Source: Synergistaceae bacterium (GTDB lineage Bacteria > Synergistota > Synergistia > Synergistales > Aminobacteriaceae). From it: 64,000 nucleotides of DNA. Both the position numbers and the translations under genes were made by a program. The notes beneath the pieces are model-generated. The model was not told the origin of the DNA. It ran no database searches and worked only from the letters and a program-made list of their open reading frames with translations. This document shows, piece by piece, positions 35,817-45,934 of this stretch. The DNA lies in assembly GCA_017540085.1 (NCBI GenBank), contig JAFYBQ010000030.1, positions 1 to 64,000 of the forward strand, written 5' to 3'. The first letter of the stretch is position 1; each line of letters begins with the position of its first letter.

Positions 35817-36335
35817 TCAGAGCTGCCAGCGGGACAATATTCCGCGTGTGAGGCGTGATACCCTGTATTCATCGCTGTGCCTGTAAGTTATGACGAGGCA
35901 GAAAGTTTTTCCCCTGTGAGTGAAGGCCGTAACTTTCTGATCATTCTCGCTGTCAATTCTGTATGTTACTGTCGAGGCGCGTATGACTCCTATCTTCATT
36001 TCGCTGTTTGTCGGGCGGGACTTTGAGCCGTAGCGGAGCATGAGTGATTCTGCAATGTCCGAGGCGAATTTCTGTGCGCTGTCCCCGCTATAAGGCCAGT
36101 AGAGTAAGACCGCCATCAATGCGTCAGAAGCCTGCGTGCTGAGAAGAGTCCGGCATGAAACGCCCTTGCCGTATGCATTCTCTATTACGGAGGAGTCTTG
36201 CGCGAGAACGTTCCAATGCTGCGGAATTGAGATTGTCCCGGCATCTGTGAGGCGTATGCGTTTCCATGTCATTCCGGCGGCGGAGCATGAAATCACGAGG
36301 ACAGCCAGCAAAAGAGCGCAGTAAACCTTTCTCAT
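35817..36335 (-). CDS. putative lipoprotein, no recognised family
   Basis: A 172-residue exported protein. The N-terminus MRKVYCALLLAVLVISC fits a lipoprotein signal with a lipobox VISC at 14-17, so Cys17 would carry lipid. The remainder is beta-rich (SIPQHWNVLAQDSSVI, SRPTNSEMKIGVIRASTVTYRI) and resembles the small PsbP/DUF1795-like folds only in style. The function is unknown. It is a single gene between bioY and the parA terminator. Confidence 0.7.
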   Translation of the reverse strand: MRKVYCALLLAVLVISCSAAGMTWKRIRLTDAGTISIPQHWNVLAQDSSVIENAYGKGVSCRTLLSTQASDALMAVLLYWPYSGDSAQKFASDIAESLMLRYGSKSRPTNSEMKIGVIRASTVTYRIDSENDQKVTAFTHRGKTFCLVITYRHSDEYRVSRLTRGILSRWQL

Positions 36336-36488: not shown

Positions 36489-36520
36489 AAAATTTACCCC
36501 CGGAGAAATTCCCGGGGGCG
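36489..36520 (-). terminator. parA terminator
   Basis: On the minus strand CCCCCGG-GAATTTCT-CCGGGGG (7-bp GC stem) is followed by TAAATTTTT. It begins 8 nt after the parA stop. Confidence 0.85.
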
Positions 36521-36527
36521 TTATTCT

Positions 36528-37868
36528 TTACATGAACACTTCAGCGGAGCCGTACTCGTCCCACTTTATGACGCACCTTAGCGGCTCTATTATCTGGTCA
36601 GAGTACATCACCGGCCAGAATGAGTCCGACTCGTCGTTCAGAACGTAGAATGTATACCTGTCCTTGTCGCAGTCCTCAAAGTCAGCACGCAGAGACCTCA
36701 CATCAATTTCTCCCCGCGAAATGTCCGTAACAGACCCAAGAAGCTGCGTCCACATTGCTTTCTCCGCCTCCGGGAGCATGTCGAGAACATCCTGCTTTAT
36801 GCTCTCCTCATACGCTCCGAGCGTTACGCGCTTTTCGCCCGGCACAGGCACAACCGGGGAAGGGAACGCGGTTTTTTGTTCCGGCTCAGGCTCAGGGGGT
36901 ACAATAATTTCCGGGGCTGTTTCGGGTTCGGGAGTCGGCACTGTCTCTTGAGTCACGGATTGCATTGCCTCTTCTATGTCAGCGCGTATTTGGGCTTCAT
37001 CTACGGGGGTTACGTCAGGGGGCATGTGAATCTTAGGGGGCGTATAAGTATCCGGCGCAGGCTCAATGAGAATTTCAGCCTCAACAGACTTAATGACAGC
37101 AAGATTATCACTGCCGAATCTCCGCAAAAACTCATCTGTAACCGCCCTGTAGCACTCAGCACCCTTTGACCTAGGCTCGTAGGCAAATATTGACAGCCCT
37201 GTGCTTGACGCTTCAACAATGCTTATATTCTGCCGTATGTAGCTCTCGAAAAGCAAATCCCCGAACTGTTTGCGGACTTCCTCATAGATTTGACGCGAGA
37301 TATACAGCCGCGGATTGTAGTTCGTCATGAGTATGCCGCCGATTTCAAGAGTCGGATTCAGCCTTTCCCGGAACGTTCCCATTGACCTGTCGAGAAGCCT
37401 TAACCCGAACAGGCTATAGAATCCGCCGTCCATAGGGACAATGATTTTATCGCTTGCCCCTAAAACATTCTGCGTGAAGATTCCCAGCTGAGGAGGGCTG
37501 TCGAGTAATATATAGTCGTAGCGGTCAGCAGCAATTTTTGCGAGAGCGTCGCGGAGTGCCGTGCGCCTGCTTGTAGGGCCGCTGTCGCTCAGTTCAGCCA
37601 TTACCAGACTCAATGAGCTTGGCACGATGTCTATACCCTCGCGCTTTGTGATAACGTCATCCCATTCCGCCGCACCCGAAAGAAGGTCAAACACCTGCGG
37701 GTCAGTCGGAGAAGGATTGAGTCCGAATCCCGCGCTGAGGTTGCTTTGAGGATCCATGTCAACAGCGGCGACTCTCTTCCCGGATTTTGACAGAGCCGCG
37801 GCTATGTTCTGGCATGAAGTTGTCTTGCCGACTCCGCCTTTGAGGTTGCAGAAGCCTATTATCATCAT
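36528..37868 (-). CDS. ParA-family ATPase with an extra C-terminal domain
   Basis: A 446-residue protein. Residues 1-250 are a complete ParA/MinD ATPase: deviant Walker A KGGVGKTT (10-17), Walker A' DMDPQSN, Walker B ILLDSPPQLG. Residues about 265-335 form a Pro/Glu/Val-rich linker. The final 110 residues (VTLGAYEESIKQDVLDMLPEAEK...DRYTFYVLNDESDSFWPVMYSD) look folded and acidic but match nothing I know. No parB and no parS-like site is nearby, so chromosome partition is unlikely; placing a surface or scaffold complex is possible. It overlaps the upstream TPR gene by 4 nt (ATGA). Confidence 0.85.
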   Translation of the reverse strand: MMIIGFCNLKGGVGKTTSCQNIAAALSKSGKRVAAVDMDPQSNLSAGFGLNPSPTDPQVFDLLSGAAEWDDVITKREGIDIVPSSLSLVMAELSDSGPTSRRTALRDALAKIAADRYDYILLDSPPQLGIFTQNVLGASDKIIVPMDGGFYSLFGLRLLDRSMGTFRERLNPTLEIGGILMTNYNPRLYISRQIYEEVRKQFGDLLFESYIRQNISIVEASSTGLSIFAYEPRSKGAECYRAVTDEFLRRFGSDNLAVIKSVEAEILIEPAPDTYTPPKIHMPPDVTPVDEAQIRADIEEAMQSVTQETVPTPEPETAPEIIVPPEPEPEQKTAFPSPVVPVPGEKRVTLGAYEESIKQDVLDMLPEAEKAMWTQLLGSVTDISRGEIDVRSLRADFEDCDKDRYTFYVLNDESDSFWPVMYSDQIIEPLRCVIKWDEYGSAEVFM

Positions 37869-39715
37869 TTAGATGTCGCCTGCCTTCTGAGGAATGATTC
37901 TATTTCCGCGTTCTTGTGAGTCTTCAGGCTGTCCCGGTAAAGCTCTAGGGCTTCCTTTGTTTTTCCTGCCCTGAAAAGCGCGTTTGCCTCCGAGATTTGA
38001 CGGTTTGCGGCGTTCACTGCATCGCGTTCTTTGAGTACAGCGTCAAGCCGGGCAACCCATCGGCGCATTTCGTCAGAGGGTGCTATCTGCTGGGCTTTCT
38101 TGTAGAGCGCGGCGGCCTGGTCAATATTTCCGTCAGCATAAAGATTATCCGCTTCCTGAATGATTTTCTGCGCGTCATACCTTGTGCCTATCCCGAAATC
38201 CTCCGGCCCTCGTATTACGGTGTCGGGCGGAAGTTTTACCCTGCTTAACTGCTGGAGTCTCTGCCGTGCGCGGTCTGTCGGCCAAACGTTAATGCTTTCG
38301 GTGAAACGCTTGAGGGCTTCCTGATTCTGATTGCGCCTCATGAGGTCGTCCCCCTCGCGGTTTAATGCGTTGGCTTGTCTTTCGCGGCGGGAAATTACGC
38401 TCTGCAATTCCTCTATGTGCTGACGGAGTGTAGCGTCGGGGTTGCTTCTTACGCTGGCGACATAGTTATTCATGGCCTCCTGAAGTTTTCCCTCGCGTTC
38501 GCGTGCGCTTCCTTCACCGGCGTAGCGGTCTGCATCGGCTATAAGTGTCAGCCTGTTTCGGATTCTCTCCATTCGGTCAAGAACTGCATCGCTTGACATG
38601 ACTGCGATACTTTTTGCGTAATACTCTAATGCGTCCTCGTACATGTTTTCATTGTCATATGCGCTTGCGGTGTCCCTGAGCCAGTTTGCTTCCTGCTGTA
38701 ATTTCCGCTGTCGGTCTACTTTTTCTTCTGCTGACTTTATTATTCTCGCGCCGTCATCAACAGGCCATATCACCTGCGCGATTCGCAGATTCTTCAATGC
38801 ATCGTCAAATCTCCCGGCTTTGTCGAAATTTACAGCGTCCTCACGGAGTTTCTGCGCCTTGTTGTAGCGGGCAAAATTTGCGGATATCGCCCGGAGTCCG
38901 TCAGCAATCTCAGTATCCCGCGGGGAAAGCTCCACCGCTCTGCGTGCTGTGTCTACTGCCTCTGCGTAATTCCCGGACTCCCATAAGCCTTGTGCTGTCT
39001 TCCAGTTCTGCCACGCTTCCCGCTCCATCGATGACTCCTCGTATGTCGAAACAGGAAGATTAATGCTCACTATGCTGTCCCCTGCGCCGAGCCTGACTCC
39101 CTGAGCGTTGAAGGCTGTTACTGTGATTTCGCTTGCGCCGATACTGCCGCGCCGTATGAGTATGTCTTCATTGTCCTGGCTGATTATCGCCGTAGCCGCG
39201 TCAGAGTTCCACGTGAAAGAATGCTTGCCGCTGAAACTGGGATTGAGGGAAGCGCGGAGCCTCACGGGAGTATTTGCCATAAGCACATCAGGACTCAGGG
39301 CGTAATCAGACCTGCTTGACGAGTCCCACAGCGTAACGGGGTTTTCGACAACAACCGCAATGTCAATCACAAACTCTTTAGGGGCTACCAGTTTTTCAGA
39401 TGACGAAATAATATCGCCGTTCCTGTCGGCAAACTCAGCTATGACTCTCACCGGCTCAGTGTCAAGAGGTGTGAAGGCACACTCACGCCCCCCCGCCCTG
39501 ACAGAGAAACGCGCAGGAGTCTTTCCTGATGTAGGGACTACTGACCATATTACAGAGCCGCCCGGGGGAATCTGGGAGGCCTCGACAGAAAGAACTGCCT
39601 GCTCTCCCACATGAGCCTCTCCGTTCATGTTTAAGGACGGGGAAGCCGCAAATGATGAGCCTGCAAATACCAGCATAAACAAAACTGTACATGCAGGGAA
39701 AAATTTTACGCGCAT
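37865..39715 (-). CDS. exported TPR-repeat protein with N-terminal beta domain
   Basis: A 616-residue protein with a Sec signal peptide (1-24, ending GSSFA). Residues about 25-235 are beta-rich (Ig/PKD-like: VIWSVVPTSGKTPARFSVRAG, HSFTWNSDAATAI). From 240 to the end at least eight TPR-like helical pairs follow (LWESGNYAEAVDTARRAVELSP, FDKAGRFDDALKNLRIAQVIWP, NLYADGNIDQAAALYKKAQQIAP). It should be a periplasmic or outer-face scaffold. ATG 39715 has AAGGAGGA 10 nt upstream. It is the first gene of a coupled pair with the ParA-like ATPase. Confidence 0.85.
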   Translation of the reverse strand: MRVKFFPACTVLFMLVFAGSSFAASPSLNMNGEAHVGEQAVLSVEASQIPPGGSVIWSVVPTSGKTPARFSVRAGGRECAFTPLDTEPVRVIAEFADRNGDIISSSEKLVAPKEFVIDIAVVVENPVTLWDSSSRSDYALSPDVLMANTPVRLRASLNPSFSGKHSFTWNSDAATAIISQDNEDILIRRGSIGASEITVTAFNAQGVRLGAGDSIVSINLPVSTYEESSMEREAWQNWKTAQGLWESGNYAEAVDTARRAVELSPRDTEIADGLRAISANFARYNKAQKLREDAVNFDKAGRFDDALKNLRIAQVIWPVDDGARIIKSAEEKVDRQRKLQQEANWLRDTASAYDNENMYEDALEYYAKSIAVMSSDAVLDRMERIRNRLTLIADADRYAGEGSAREREGKLQEAMNNYVASVRSNPDATLRQHIEELQSVISRRERQANALNREGDDLMRRNQNQEALKRFTESINVWPTDRARQRLQQLSRVKLPPDTVIRGPEDFGIGTRYDAQKIIQEADNLYADGNIDQAAALYKKAQQIAPSDEMRRWVARLDAVLKERDAVNAANRQISEANALFRAGKTKEALELYRDSLKTHKNAEIESFLRRQATSK

Positions 39716-39906
39716 GAATCTTTTTCCTCCTTCTGTGAAATAAAGCGTGTGAAAGTTTATGTGTATATCGTGATTGTAATTATACATTGAAATATCCTGA
39801 ACACATTACAGTGTTTCGCAGTCTCTCAGGCAGAGCGGCCAAAACAGAATATAATATACTCAATCACACAAACAACAAACAATCCATTTCAGGAGGGAAA
39901 AAATCC

Positions 39907-42339: not shown

Positions 42340-42383
42340 TTAATATAATTACCCTGAAAATTTATGCTGGAGGAATGTCAGCC

Positions 42384-44084
42384 ATGATAATCAATAACAA
42401 TCTCACAGCATTGTCGGCACTCAGCGCAACAAAGGCCGCCAGTGATATGGTCAGCAAATCCATAAAGCCGTTAGCGAGCGGGCTGAAGATTAATTCTGCC
42501 TCCGATGACGCTTCCGGGCTGTCGATAAGTGAGAAAATGCGCTCACAGATAAAGGGTGCTGACATGGCCGTGAAAAATGCCCAAGACGGTATATCATTGC
42601 TCAGGGTTGCAGACGGGGCATTAAGCAATACGGACGGCATACTCCACAGGATGAGGGAGCTTTCAGTTCAGGCAGGCAATGACACTCTCACATTGCAGGA
42701 CAGGACTCACATACAGGAAGAAATAGACGGCCTTCGGAATCAGTTGGACGAAATATCACGGTACACAGACTTCAACAAAAAGAAACTCCTTAACGGCTCG
42801 GCGGGCGCGTTATGGTCATCGGATGACATAAAAGTAAAAGTGCGCGTTCACGGAAGTCTTCTTACCTTCAACAGCGAGGGCAATAATCATAATACAGTAA
42901 ACGCCGGGGCAAATTACAGAATAGAAGTCCGCTCTGACCCGGGAAAAGCACAGGTGCAGAAAAGCAACATCATGAGCGTAACCGAAACAATGCTTATACA
43001 AACCGGCGATGATGATGATGACCCTATAGAAGTGTATTACGATAAAGCATTAAGCGAGATTTCACAGTTTTATGACAGTGAGGGGAAATTTATTGTCGCA
43101 GAGCCTCAGAAATTAACGCTCGTTCAGGGGAACGGGAAAACGGCGGGCGTTGTGATTTACGGCGAGGATACTTTGAGGGACACTGCCGCGAAAATCAATA
43201 ATGCTATAGCATTCGGACTCGGACAGTCAGAATACACCGATGACGCGCAGAAGTTTGCAGTGATTTCTGACGGCACCGGGATGACCTCGGAGTCAGTCTA
43301 TTCACGCTCGGCAATGTATGACACTGACGGAAATATGACAGGCTACGACATAAAATCAACGCTCGTAATCCGCAGTGCTGTACAGGGCCGTGAAGGAGAA
43401 ATATATTTTGCGGGAAATGAAGAGCTGATTAAGGCGTTCGGGCTGAACACGATACAGGACTCGCGGGAGGGGACATTCAATGTCTCAGTGTACAACGCCC
43501 ACACCGGCGAGACTTTAGCGACTGACATAAAGATTACAGGCCATGAGCTTGCCGGGATAATTCACCCGAATGTTGATGTCGATTTTGACCCTATGGCCGG
43601 GACTGTCGCAGAATGGAACGAGAGCGGGAAAGAGTACATGATGATTTCTGACGGGGTATATACCGCAAATATTCACCTTGCGAACAACGGCATACTCTTT
43701 CAGACAGGCGCGAATCAAGATGAGTCATTCGCCGTTCAGCTTGGGAATGTCTCAGCGGAGACTCTCGGAGTTGACCGCGTGAATGTCATGACCGGGGATC
43801 TTGCCCGCAGGTCTGTCGGCTATATTGACTCGGCAATTGACAGCGTAGTCAGGCAGCGGACTCAGATTGTCGCATACGGGGACGCACTAGAGCATACACT
43901 ACAGAGCGTGAACACCGCCGGGGAGAATCTCAATGACTCAGTGAGCAGGATAACTGATGCCGATTACGCGCAGTCGACAATGAGATTCATAGAGTTCCAG
44001 ATTCTGAGCCGGGCAGGTGAAGCTATGCTGTCCCAGGCAAACCAGCAGCCCGAAGCAGTTTTTAGCCTTCTCGGAAATTCATAG
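42384..44084 (+). CDS. fliC: flagellin
   Basis: A 566-residue flagellin that forms the flagellar filament. The conserved N-terminal D0/D1 region (IINNNLTALSALSATKAAS...SGLKINSASDDASGLSISEKM...AQDGISLLRVADGALS) and the C-terminal region (IDSVVRQRTQIVAYGDALEH...MLSQANQQPEAVFSLLG) are complete. The centre (about 150-470) carries a flagellin-IN-like segment (EDTLRDTAAKINNAIA) and a variable, acidic surface part. ATG 42384 is chosen over 42375 because GGAGGA lies 9 nt before it and directly abuts the other. Single gene; no other flagellar genes follow. Confidence 0.94.
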   Translation: MIINNNLTALSALSATKAASDMVSKSIKPLASGLKINSASDDASGLSISEKMRSQIKGADMAVKNAQDGISLLRVADGALSNTDGILHRMRELSVQAGNDTLTLQDRTHIQEEIDGLRNQLDEISRYTDFNKKKLLNGSAGALWSSDDIKVKVRVHGSLLTFNSEGNNHNTVNAGANYRIEVRSDPGKAQVQKSNIMSVTETMLIQTGDDDDDPIEVYYDKALSEISQFYDSEGKFIVAEPQKLTLVQGNGKTAGVVIYGEDTLRDTAAKINNAIAFGLGQSEYTDDAQKFAVISDGTGMTSESVYSRSAMYDTDGNMTGYDIKSTLVIRSAVQGREGEIYFAGNEELIKAFGLNTIQDSREGTFNVSVYNAHTGETLATDIKITGHELAGIIHPNVDVDFDPMAGTVAEWNESGKEYMMISDGVYTANIHLANNGILFQTGANQDESFAVQLGNVSAETLGVDRVNVMTGDLARRSVGYIDSAIDSVVRQRTQIVAYGDALEHTLQSVNTAGENLNDSVSRITDADYAQSTMRFIEFQILSRAGEAMLSQANQQPEAVFSLLGNS

Positions 44085-44086
44085 CC

Positions 44087-45934
44087 TCATGGACGGGTGC
44101 GCCTTCTGACAAGCAGCAATAGTATCACGCATGACATACCCGGCAGATTACATCCCTGACTCCCGCGGCTTTCTCCCGGTGCTGTGTCCTCCGTTATATT
44201 AACCCTCGCTGTAATTACAGGCTCATACCTGACTCCGCCCTCAAGATATGTCCTTACCGTGATTTTCCTGTTGGCAGGGACTGCGCTGACCTCGCGCCCG
44301 GAAGTATCGACAAACGTATAATTCTCGCCCTCCGCCTCAATGCCATATGGGAATGAGTGATACTCTATGTATGTCCCTTCAGGAATCCAACTGTCAAAGC
44401 TCACGTAGAAATCATATCTTCCGTCCTCGCTAACTGTTACAGGGGGGATTATTGCGGCTGTGATGTATTTATGCGGAGCGTCCTCGGATATTGACAGCGA
44501 ATATCTCCGCGAGGCTTTCCCGCCGGGGTTTTCCGCTGAAATTATGAGTGAGAAACGCCCGGCCTCCTCCGGGACTCCCTCAAGCACTCCCGCTTTGCTG
44601 AACGTGAGTCCCTTCGGCAGTTTCCCGCGAAGACTCCACACTGTGCCAGCTCCGCCCGAATACATGAAATCAGCGTGATAATATTCCCCCTTGAAGCCGT
44701 CCGGGATTGTCTCCGTCTTTATCTGCGGCTTTAGTGTCCTTATGCTGAACGGAATATGCCGGGAGGATTTGCCTTCTTCTGTTGAAGCATATACTGTTAT
44801 GCGCCCGTCAAAATCTTTTGCGGGAACTCCTGAGATTATCCCCGTATCAGCGTCAAGAGTCAGACCTTCAGGGAGAATATCACTGCTCCATTTCACCGGG
44901 CCGCGGCTTGAAGCCCTCAGCCTGAAACTGTAGCGCATTCCCGTGTAGCCTTGCCGTAGTGATGATGTCGATATTGCCGGAATATCTCCCCTCACCGAAA
45001 GCGTGTAGTCCCTCCGTGCGAATACAGCCCCGTTGCCAGCGTCAACAGTCAGCAGAAATTTCCCGGTCTCACGCGGAGTCCCCGAAAGAGTCCCAGAGTC
45101 AAACGACAGCCCGCGCGGAATATCCCCGGAGACCCGCCAAATATCACCCTCAATCCCGGACACCTTCAGCGCGCATTTATACGCCCTGCCGTAATTGCCA
45201 TCGCTTAACGTCTCAGGGGTAATCATTATGTCAGTGCTTGAGACTGTCAGCGCGACTCTTGCTGACGATTCCCCGGCCTCGTTCGCGGCTGTTACGTCAA
45301 TGATATATTCTCCCGGCTCTGAGGGAGTCCCGGAGATTCGCCCGTTGCTGTCCATCGTGAGTCCTTCAGGAAGAGTCCCGGCCATGATTACGGAGGAGGG
45401 CGAGTCGTTCATGGCAAGCGCGAAATCATAGGAGGCATTCACGACAGCGGAAGGCAATACGGGAGTCATGACACGCGGAAGAGAGTCGGCAAAAACTTTC
45501 AGCGGGAAGACATCCGAGACTTTCCCGGCACTGTTCGAGGCTGTAATGTCAACGCTGAATACCCCGAAAATTTTCGGAACGCCTGAAATTTTCCCGGGGG
45601 CTGAACACGTGAGTCCATCGGGGAGTCCTTCTGCTGACCACCGCGCCGGGGCTGAGGCCGTGAGGGTGTACGAATAACTTTCGCCCGAAATGCCCGGCCA
45701 TAATTTATTGTGTGAAATGTCGGGGATAACCTGCGGAGCCTCGTCAAGCGTCCACGTTCCGGGAATGTCTATCTTCATGGGCGGAATGTCGCCCGCGTTC
45801 GCGCCTTCCCGCCGAAAAATCACGGCATCGCGGGAGTCCGTGTAGCTGAGTATGAGAATGTCGCCGGAAATTTCGAGCCTTGTCGCGGCGTTGAGTGAAA
45901 AGAGAACGCAAAGAAGAAGGATAATCCGCCGCAT
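44087..45934 (-). CDS. surface protein of Ig-like repeats with Synerg-CTERM-type tail
   Basis: A 615-residue exported protein. A signal peptide (1-17) is followed by at least five putative-Ig (He_PIG-type) repeats of about 75-80 residues, each with an LPxGLTxxxxGxISGxP core (LPDGLTCSAPGKISGVP, LPEGLTMDSNGRISGTP). The C-terminal tail (SRGSQGCNLPGMSCVILLLLVRRRTRP region) has a Gly-Cys motif, a hydrophobic helix and basic end, like the Synerg-CTERM sorting signal of Synergistota. It should be cell-surface anchored. It lies 17 nt after arnT on the same strand. Confidence 0.8.
   Translation of the reverse strand: MRRIILLLCVLFSLNAATRLEISGDILILSYTDSRDAVIFRREGANAGDIPPMKIDIPGTWTLDEAPQVIPDISHNKLWPGISGESYSYTLTASAPARWSAEGLPDGLTCSAPGKISGVPKIFGVFSVDITASNSAGKVSDVFPLKVFADSLPRVMTPVLPSAVVNASYDFALAMNDSPSSVIMAGTLPEGLTMDSNGRISGTPSEPGEYIIDVTAANEAGESSARVALTVSSTDIMITPETLSDGNYGRAYKCALKVSGIEGDIWRVSGDIPRGLSFDSGTLSGTPRETGKFLLTVDAGNGAVFARRDYTLSVRGDIPAISTSSLRQGYTGMRYSFRLRASSRGPVKWSSDILPEGLTLDADTGIISGVPAKDFDGRITVYASTEEGKSSRHIPFSIRTLKPQIKTETIPDGFKGEYYHADFMYSGGAGTVWSLRGKLPKGLTFSKAGVLEGVPEEAGRFSLIISAENPGGKASRRYSLSISEDAPHKYITAAIIPPVTVSEDGRYDFYVSFDSWIPEGTYIEYHSFPYGIEAEGENYTFVDTSGREVSAVPANRKITVRTYLEGGVRYEPVITARVNITEDTAPGESRGSQGCNLPGMSCVILLLLVRRRTRP

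Follow-up and report, generated by a model that had tools for sequence, protein, structure and literature searches.

A ParA/MinD-type ATPase and its candidate cargo adaptor, fused into one protein in a genus of Synergistaceae

Many ParA/MinD ATPases are regarded as 'orphans', since their partners are too diverse to be recognised (PMC10241942). In the PomZ-PomX and PpfA-TlpT / ParC-ParP systems, the partner is a cargo domain preceded by a positively charged N-terminal segment (PMC7993993). The McdA-McdB system comprises a ParA-type ATPase and a small partner with a lysine/arginine-rich N-terminal peptide, and has no ParB; the Walker A motif of McdA is SGGQGKT (PMC9178275). In Soj-ParB (ParABS) systems, a ParB with a ParB_N/CTPase domain is encoded beside ParA.

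We analysed an operon of two minus-strand genes (Table 1) in the window, by which we mean the whole 64,000-nucleotide stretch of Synergistaceae DNA under analysis. The product of the upstream gene is exported and has Ig-like domains and tetratricopeptide repeats (TPRs); the downstream gene encodes a ParA-type ATPase. Comparison with relatives suggests, with a probability of about 0.6, that the downstream product (36528–37868) is a positioning ATPase of the ParA/MinD type fused to its own cargo adaptor, which would belong to a new adaptor family. We read the C-terminal domain (CTD) of this protein as an adaptor because its counterparts in relatives are separate partner proteins that share the layout of known ParA/MinD adaptors (McdB, PomX).

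Table 1. Features of the operon, with coordinates in the window
Feature	Coordinates	Strand	Evidence
ParA-adaptor fusion protein (candidate), 446 aa	36528..37868	-	ORF; Pfam AAA_31 6e-45
ParA/Soj-type ATPase core, aa 1–250, deviant Walker A KGGVGKT	37119..37868	-	Pfam, PDB match, motifs
Hypervariable Pro/Glu linker, about 100 aa	36819..37118	-	Orthologue comparison
CTD, 96 aa, putative adaptor domain (separate protein in relatives)	36531..36818	-	Profile search; predicted fold
Product of the upstream operon gene: exported Ig-like/TPR protein, 616 aa	37865..39715	-	ORF; Pfam TPR models; relatives
Signal peptide, SPase I type, AFA-A	39647..39715	-	Read from sequence by eye
N-terminal Ig-like beta domains	39009..39646	-	Model pLDDT 88.8; PDB matches to tandem Ig modules, E 1e-6
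Tetratricopeptide repeats	37868..39008	-	TPR_2 1.1e-19 and related models
Shine-Dalgarno sequence AAGGAGG of the TPR gene	39726..39732	-	Sequence
Intrinsic terminator of the operon	36496..36519	-	Hairpin of 9 pairs and T tract

The initial annotation had given the boundaries of the two genes and their 4-nt overlap correctly: the TGA stop of the TPR gene sits within the ATGA at the ATPase start. We preferred the TPR-gene start at 39715 to an upstream option that would yield 640 aa, because GAAGGAGG lies 10 nt 5' of this ATG. The terminator that had been assigned to the pair was also recovered (36519–36496, minus strand), and a hairpin with a T tract recurs 3' of the ATPase gene in most relatives of the same genus; in a scan for terminators, the number found was not above the number in shuffled sequences. 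The Ig/TPR gene and the ATPase gene are probably co-transcribed.

The ATPase matches Pfam AAA_31 over residues 2–176, and residues 3–250 give a Soj-type match in the PDB, with solved Soj/ParA proteins reaching 4e-46 (7e-43 for Thermus Soj). The deviant Walker A (KGGVGKT, versus SGGQGKT in McdA) and Walker B motifs place the protein in the ParA/MinD family, and both KGGVGKT and a DxDPQ motif are invariant across the ATPase family described here. Although the core resembles Soj, the system differs from ParABS in that the partners in relatives have no ParB_N domain and in that, in a tree of ParA cores, the whole family branches apart from the phylum's own Soj proteins (100/100). The absence of ParB noted initially was borne out, with no match to ParB_N in the 99.8% complete genome.

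FlhG/FleN and MinD belong to the same superfamily and share the KGGVGKT/S motif. We classify the ATPase as ParA and not as MinD or FlhG because the genome has a separate MinD and a separate FlhF-FlhG pair: an FlhG-type gene lies beside an FlhF-type gene on another contig (identified by reading the sequences), and a MinD-type gene lies beside a MinC-like gene (by eye). The protein also ends in the CTD and not in the amphipathic helix of MinD. An assignment to BcsQ was rejected, as the NCBIfam model TIGR03371 scored 70 bits against a cut-off of 158. A second ParA-like protein of about 306–310 aa (MK.VSVIN.KGGVGKT) is encoded directly 3' of the fused ParA in five genomes of the genus (loci L005, L007, L008, L028 and L056); in the window's genome it is encoded on another contig (L165; G000:C37:106384-107001).

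The linker between the core and the CTD ranges from 9 to 144 aa among orthologues (median 86), with a median Pro plus Glu content of 41% (33 sequences). The C-terminal domain, initially described as 110 residues that could not be matched, is indeed without a match but is smaller, at about 96 residues. It matched nothing in Pfam or NCBIfam, and its sequence found nothing credible in the PDB (best E 0.046). The predicted model (pLDDT 91, pTM 0.81) consists of helix-helix-strand-helix followed by three strands. Comparison of this fold with the PDB gave a best E of 0.31, with query-normalised TM-scores of at most 0.36 among the matches listed, and comparison with viral models gave a best E of 0.29. 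These profile and structure searches, which the initial annotation had proposed, returned no known family and rule out a known domain within Pfam, the PDB (sequence and fold) and the viral models; going by the PDB and viral-model comparisons, the predicted domain may be a new fold.

The CTD profile matched 60 of 188 Synergistota genomes, distributed over 13 genera; outside its own genus the domain occurs in other Synergistaceae and in one further family. Searches of plasmids (with a separate partner as the query) and of phages (with the CTD of the window) gave no match. A scan of the whole collection for the adaptor family, which used a single pattern and so probes the limits outside Synergistota weakly, returned eight loci, all from Synergistetes/Synergistaceae (named matches: Fretibacterium sp. 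and MAGs of Synergistaceae and Synergistetes).

Outside the fused clade, the CTD is found at the C-terminus of a stand-alone protein whose gene lies directly 3' of that for an unfused ParA. These partners are 132–460 aa long, mostly overlap the ParA stop by 8 nt, and gave no Pfam match among the 11 searched. Each partner sampled begins with a near-invariant basic peptide, K/R-x-RPSLKDYL-x-TG (also written M-x-K-K-x-RPSLKDYL-x-TG), which is followed by a linker of variable composition. The R, L, Y, L and G of the motif are invariant in 20/20 sampled partners, in which K/R residues precede them; a 21st partner (in L119) has the same peptide with F for Y. The adaptor of genus g11 (L051, L093, L101, L103 and L107) has about 90 extra residues; by eye these resemble either a degenerate duplicate of the CTD start or a winged helix.

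The layout of the separate partners is the same as in PomZ-PomX and PpfA-TlpT / ParC-ParP, but we saw no recognisable division or chemoreceptor domain and no such adjoining genes. In McdAB-type systems an adjacent small partner binds ParA through a basic N-terminal peptide; going by sequence, the unfused relatives have a candidate for such a partner, and the fused form has lost the peptide. The system differs further from McdA-McdB in its CTD, which matches nothing in Pfam, in the fusion itself, and in that microcompartment genes are missing from nearly all genomes of the genus (g1). A partner and a simple signature (RPSLKDYL) are now assigned to one orphan family of ParA/MinD ATPases.

The fused form is represented by 31 sequences of the same genus, which form one clade in the ParA-core tree (99/99). 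Its sister is the ParA of G015, a member of the same genus that is still unfused and whose partner has the peptide MPIKDRPSLRGYL. The basic peptide is missing from all 30-odd fused proteins. A single fusion event within this genus, accompanied by loss of the peptide, is therefore the most likely history. Two acidic ParA positions, E95 and D101, are conserved in 21 of 22 unfused ParAs and variable in the fused proteins, a post hoc and weak observation that would be expected if the basic peptide stops binding. We found no precedent in the open-access literature for a natural ParA-adaptor fusion.

These comparisons suggest a mechanism whose overall function we infer to be positioning. In the two-gene ancestor, ParA would bind the nucleoid as an ATP dimer, as its family relationships imply. 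The small partner would dock on ParA and trigger ATP hydrolysis through its basic N-terminal peptide, the putative activator, while its folded CTD, which follows a disordered linker, would hold the cargo. Merging of the two frames in this genus would then have left the CTD tethered to the ATPase by the Pro/Glu linker; the docking peptide would have been lost, we propose, because fusion makes docking unnecessary. The exported Ig/TPR protein may contribute to this process on the outer side of the membrane. Several points weigh against this account. A protein without the activating peptide should complete the usual ATPase cycle poorly; the fused form would therefore need other activation or would work differently. 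In addition, the predicted CTD has no structural relative suggesting a binding function. We consider it a tentative and rather unlikely proposition that the fused protein is a one-polypeptide positioning machine that dispenses with the activating peptide required in comparable systems, with covalent cargo capture, an ATPase cycle driven in another way and a CTD of unseen fold. The locus nonetheless amounts to a natural experiment, in which ATPase and adaptor were fused once and the presumed docking peptide was discarded, and the docking-peptide rule thereby becomes testable.

The partner of the ATPase in the initial annotation was the product of the upstream gene, correctly described as exported with Ig-like and TPR domains. 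The two genes are adjacent on one contig in 35 genomes of the same genus, where the measured gaps run from -4 to +4 nt, and the same order recurs in a further seven genera of this family (G082, G084, G087, G093, G106, G108 and G109; TPR identity 35–46%). With eight genera in total, the pairing in relatives that the initial annotation had proposed to check is upheld, and conservation of the pair is, on these gene orders, far beyond chance. In several sister genera, an exported Ig/TPR giant of 1,470–1,530 aa follows the ParA-adaptor pair or directly follows the TPR gene; individual giants (e.g. L097:2852-7444 and L100:8097-12536) have two Ig-plus-TPR sections each.

This adjacency, and the location of the ParA-adaptor pair in several genera, with the TPR gene on one side and the giant on the other, could mean that the ATPase places an envelope assembly with the Ig/TPR protein (and the giant, in sister genera) as its outer part. 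The two genes can, however, be separated in either direction. TPR genes without an adjoining ParA, with or without the giant, occur in G104, G107, G113, G114, G116, g25, G112, G117, G019, G025, G097 and G098. The last four belong to the same genus and have something other than the ATPase after the TPR gene; in G098, BioY follows directly, as though the ATPase had been excised. Conversely, the ParA-adaptor pair occurs without a TPR gene in g11, g16, g21 and g23. The pair is found in three settings: it follows the TPR gene, is flanked by c-di-GMP genes in g16, g21 and g23, or follows an exported LmeA-like protein in g11. Because the TPR protein is restricted to one of these settings and survives alone in several lineages, we consider it a frequent but separable neighbour, and the conserved functional unit, as far as gene content indicates, is ParA with its adaptor (CTD). 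Coupling of the two proteins would also need a membrane link, since the ATPase is cytosolic and the TPR protein exported, and the operon encodes no linking membrane protein; coupling across the membrane is a guess. Placement of an envelope machine is accordingly an unlikely reading. The initial proposal of an unrecognised system thus stands in that a conserved system without a known match exists, but in a different form, as ParA plus an adaptor domain; coupling of the ATPase to an envelope scaffold is conjectural. Its suggested role, placement of a surface machine, agrees with the best reading in invoking a positioning-type ATPase; a surface machine as its cargo is possible but conjectural.

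A search for cargo by co-occurrence revealed only a loose dependence on chemotaxis and flagella. Chemotaxis-positioning ParAs exist (PMC10241942, PMC5706961), and a specific form of the preferred reading, fusion to a cargo adaptor, is a ParC/PpfA-like placer in which ParA distributes the chemotaxis array, or the flagellar/motility apparatus, between the poles or along the nucleoid, with the CTD as the part that binds it. CheW is present in 60/60 CTD-bearing genomes and flagellin in 59/60, and within the two families that have the system, 0/10 CheW-less genomes have it (Fisher p 3e-5), although the genomes are non-independent and only about four lineages lack CheW. On the other hand, many chemotactic flagellates do without the ATPase, including G019, G025, G097 and G098 of the same genus; none of the neighbourhoods inspected has a chemotaxis gene adjoining the ATPase, and Pfam gives no CheW-family match for the CTD. 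We regard this form as improbable, and treat the co-occurrence as a lead that may point to cargo in motility or chemotaxis.

The same ATPase fold is also used for regulation instead of positioning, as in FleN and BcsQ, and the ATP-bound ParA-CTD could act as an on/off switch for an enzyme or regulator. The location of the pair beside c-di-GMP genes would fit such a role, but this context is confined to g16, g21 and g23, and cargo systems are marked by a separate adaptor that starts with a basic peptide. A regulatory function is, in our judgement, doubtful.

Chromosomal-type ParB was not found in Synergistaceae genera g1, g18, g25–g28, g30, g31, g33 and g34 (some members of the same genus have weak or mobile-type matches), so a large part of the family is without a recognisable ParB, and ParABS has apparently been lost widely in one part of the Synergistaceae. 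That the Soj-like ParA took over nucleoid segregation when the genus lost ParB is very improbable and was rejected, since g11, g16, g19 and g21–g24 have both ParB and the unfused system, the ParB-less genera g25, g26, g30, g31 and g33 are also without the system, and, apart from its ParA core, the fused protein has no DNA-binding domain that we could detect.

Microcompartments were judged unlikely as a general cargo, most CTD-positive genomes having no BMC protein. Only two members of the genus, G019 and G097, have microcompartment shell proteins, and both have the TPR gene without ParA-CTD. A mobile or defence cassette was likewise judged unlikely, as the tree follows the genera and the BioY/BirA neighbourhood is shared. 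Between the operon and BioY, the window encodes a 172-aa exported protein (35817–36335, minus strand) that has no Pfam match and is absent from this position in most relatives. Also close to the operon is a gene judged flagellin-like by sequence (42375–44084, plus strand), in a genome with five flagellin matches. A further gene of the window (44087–45934, minus strand) encodes an exported protein of 615 aa in which Pfam recognises five or more He_PIG Ig-like repeats (1.8e-43).
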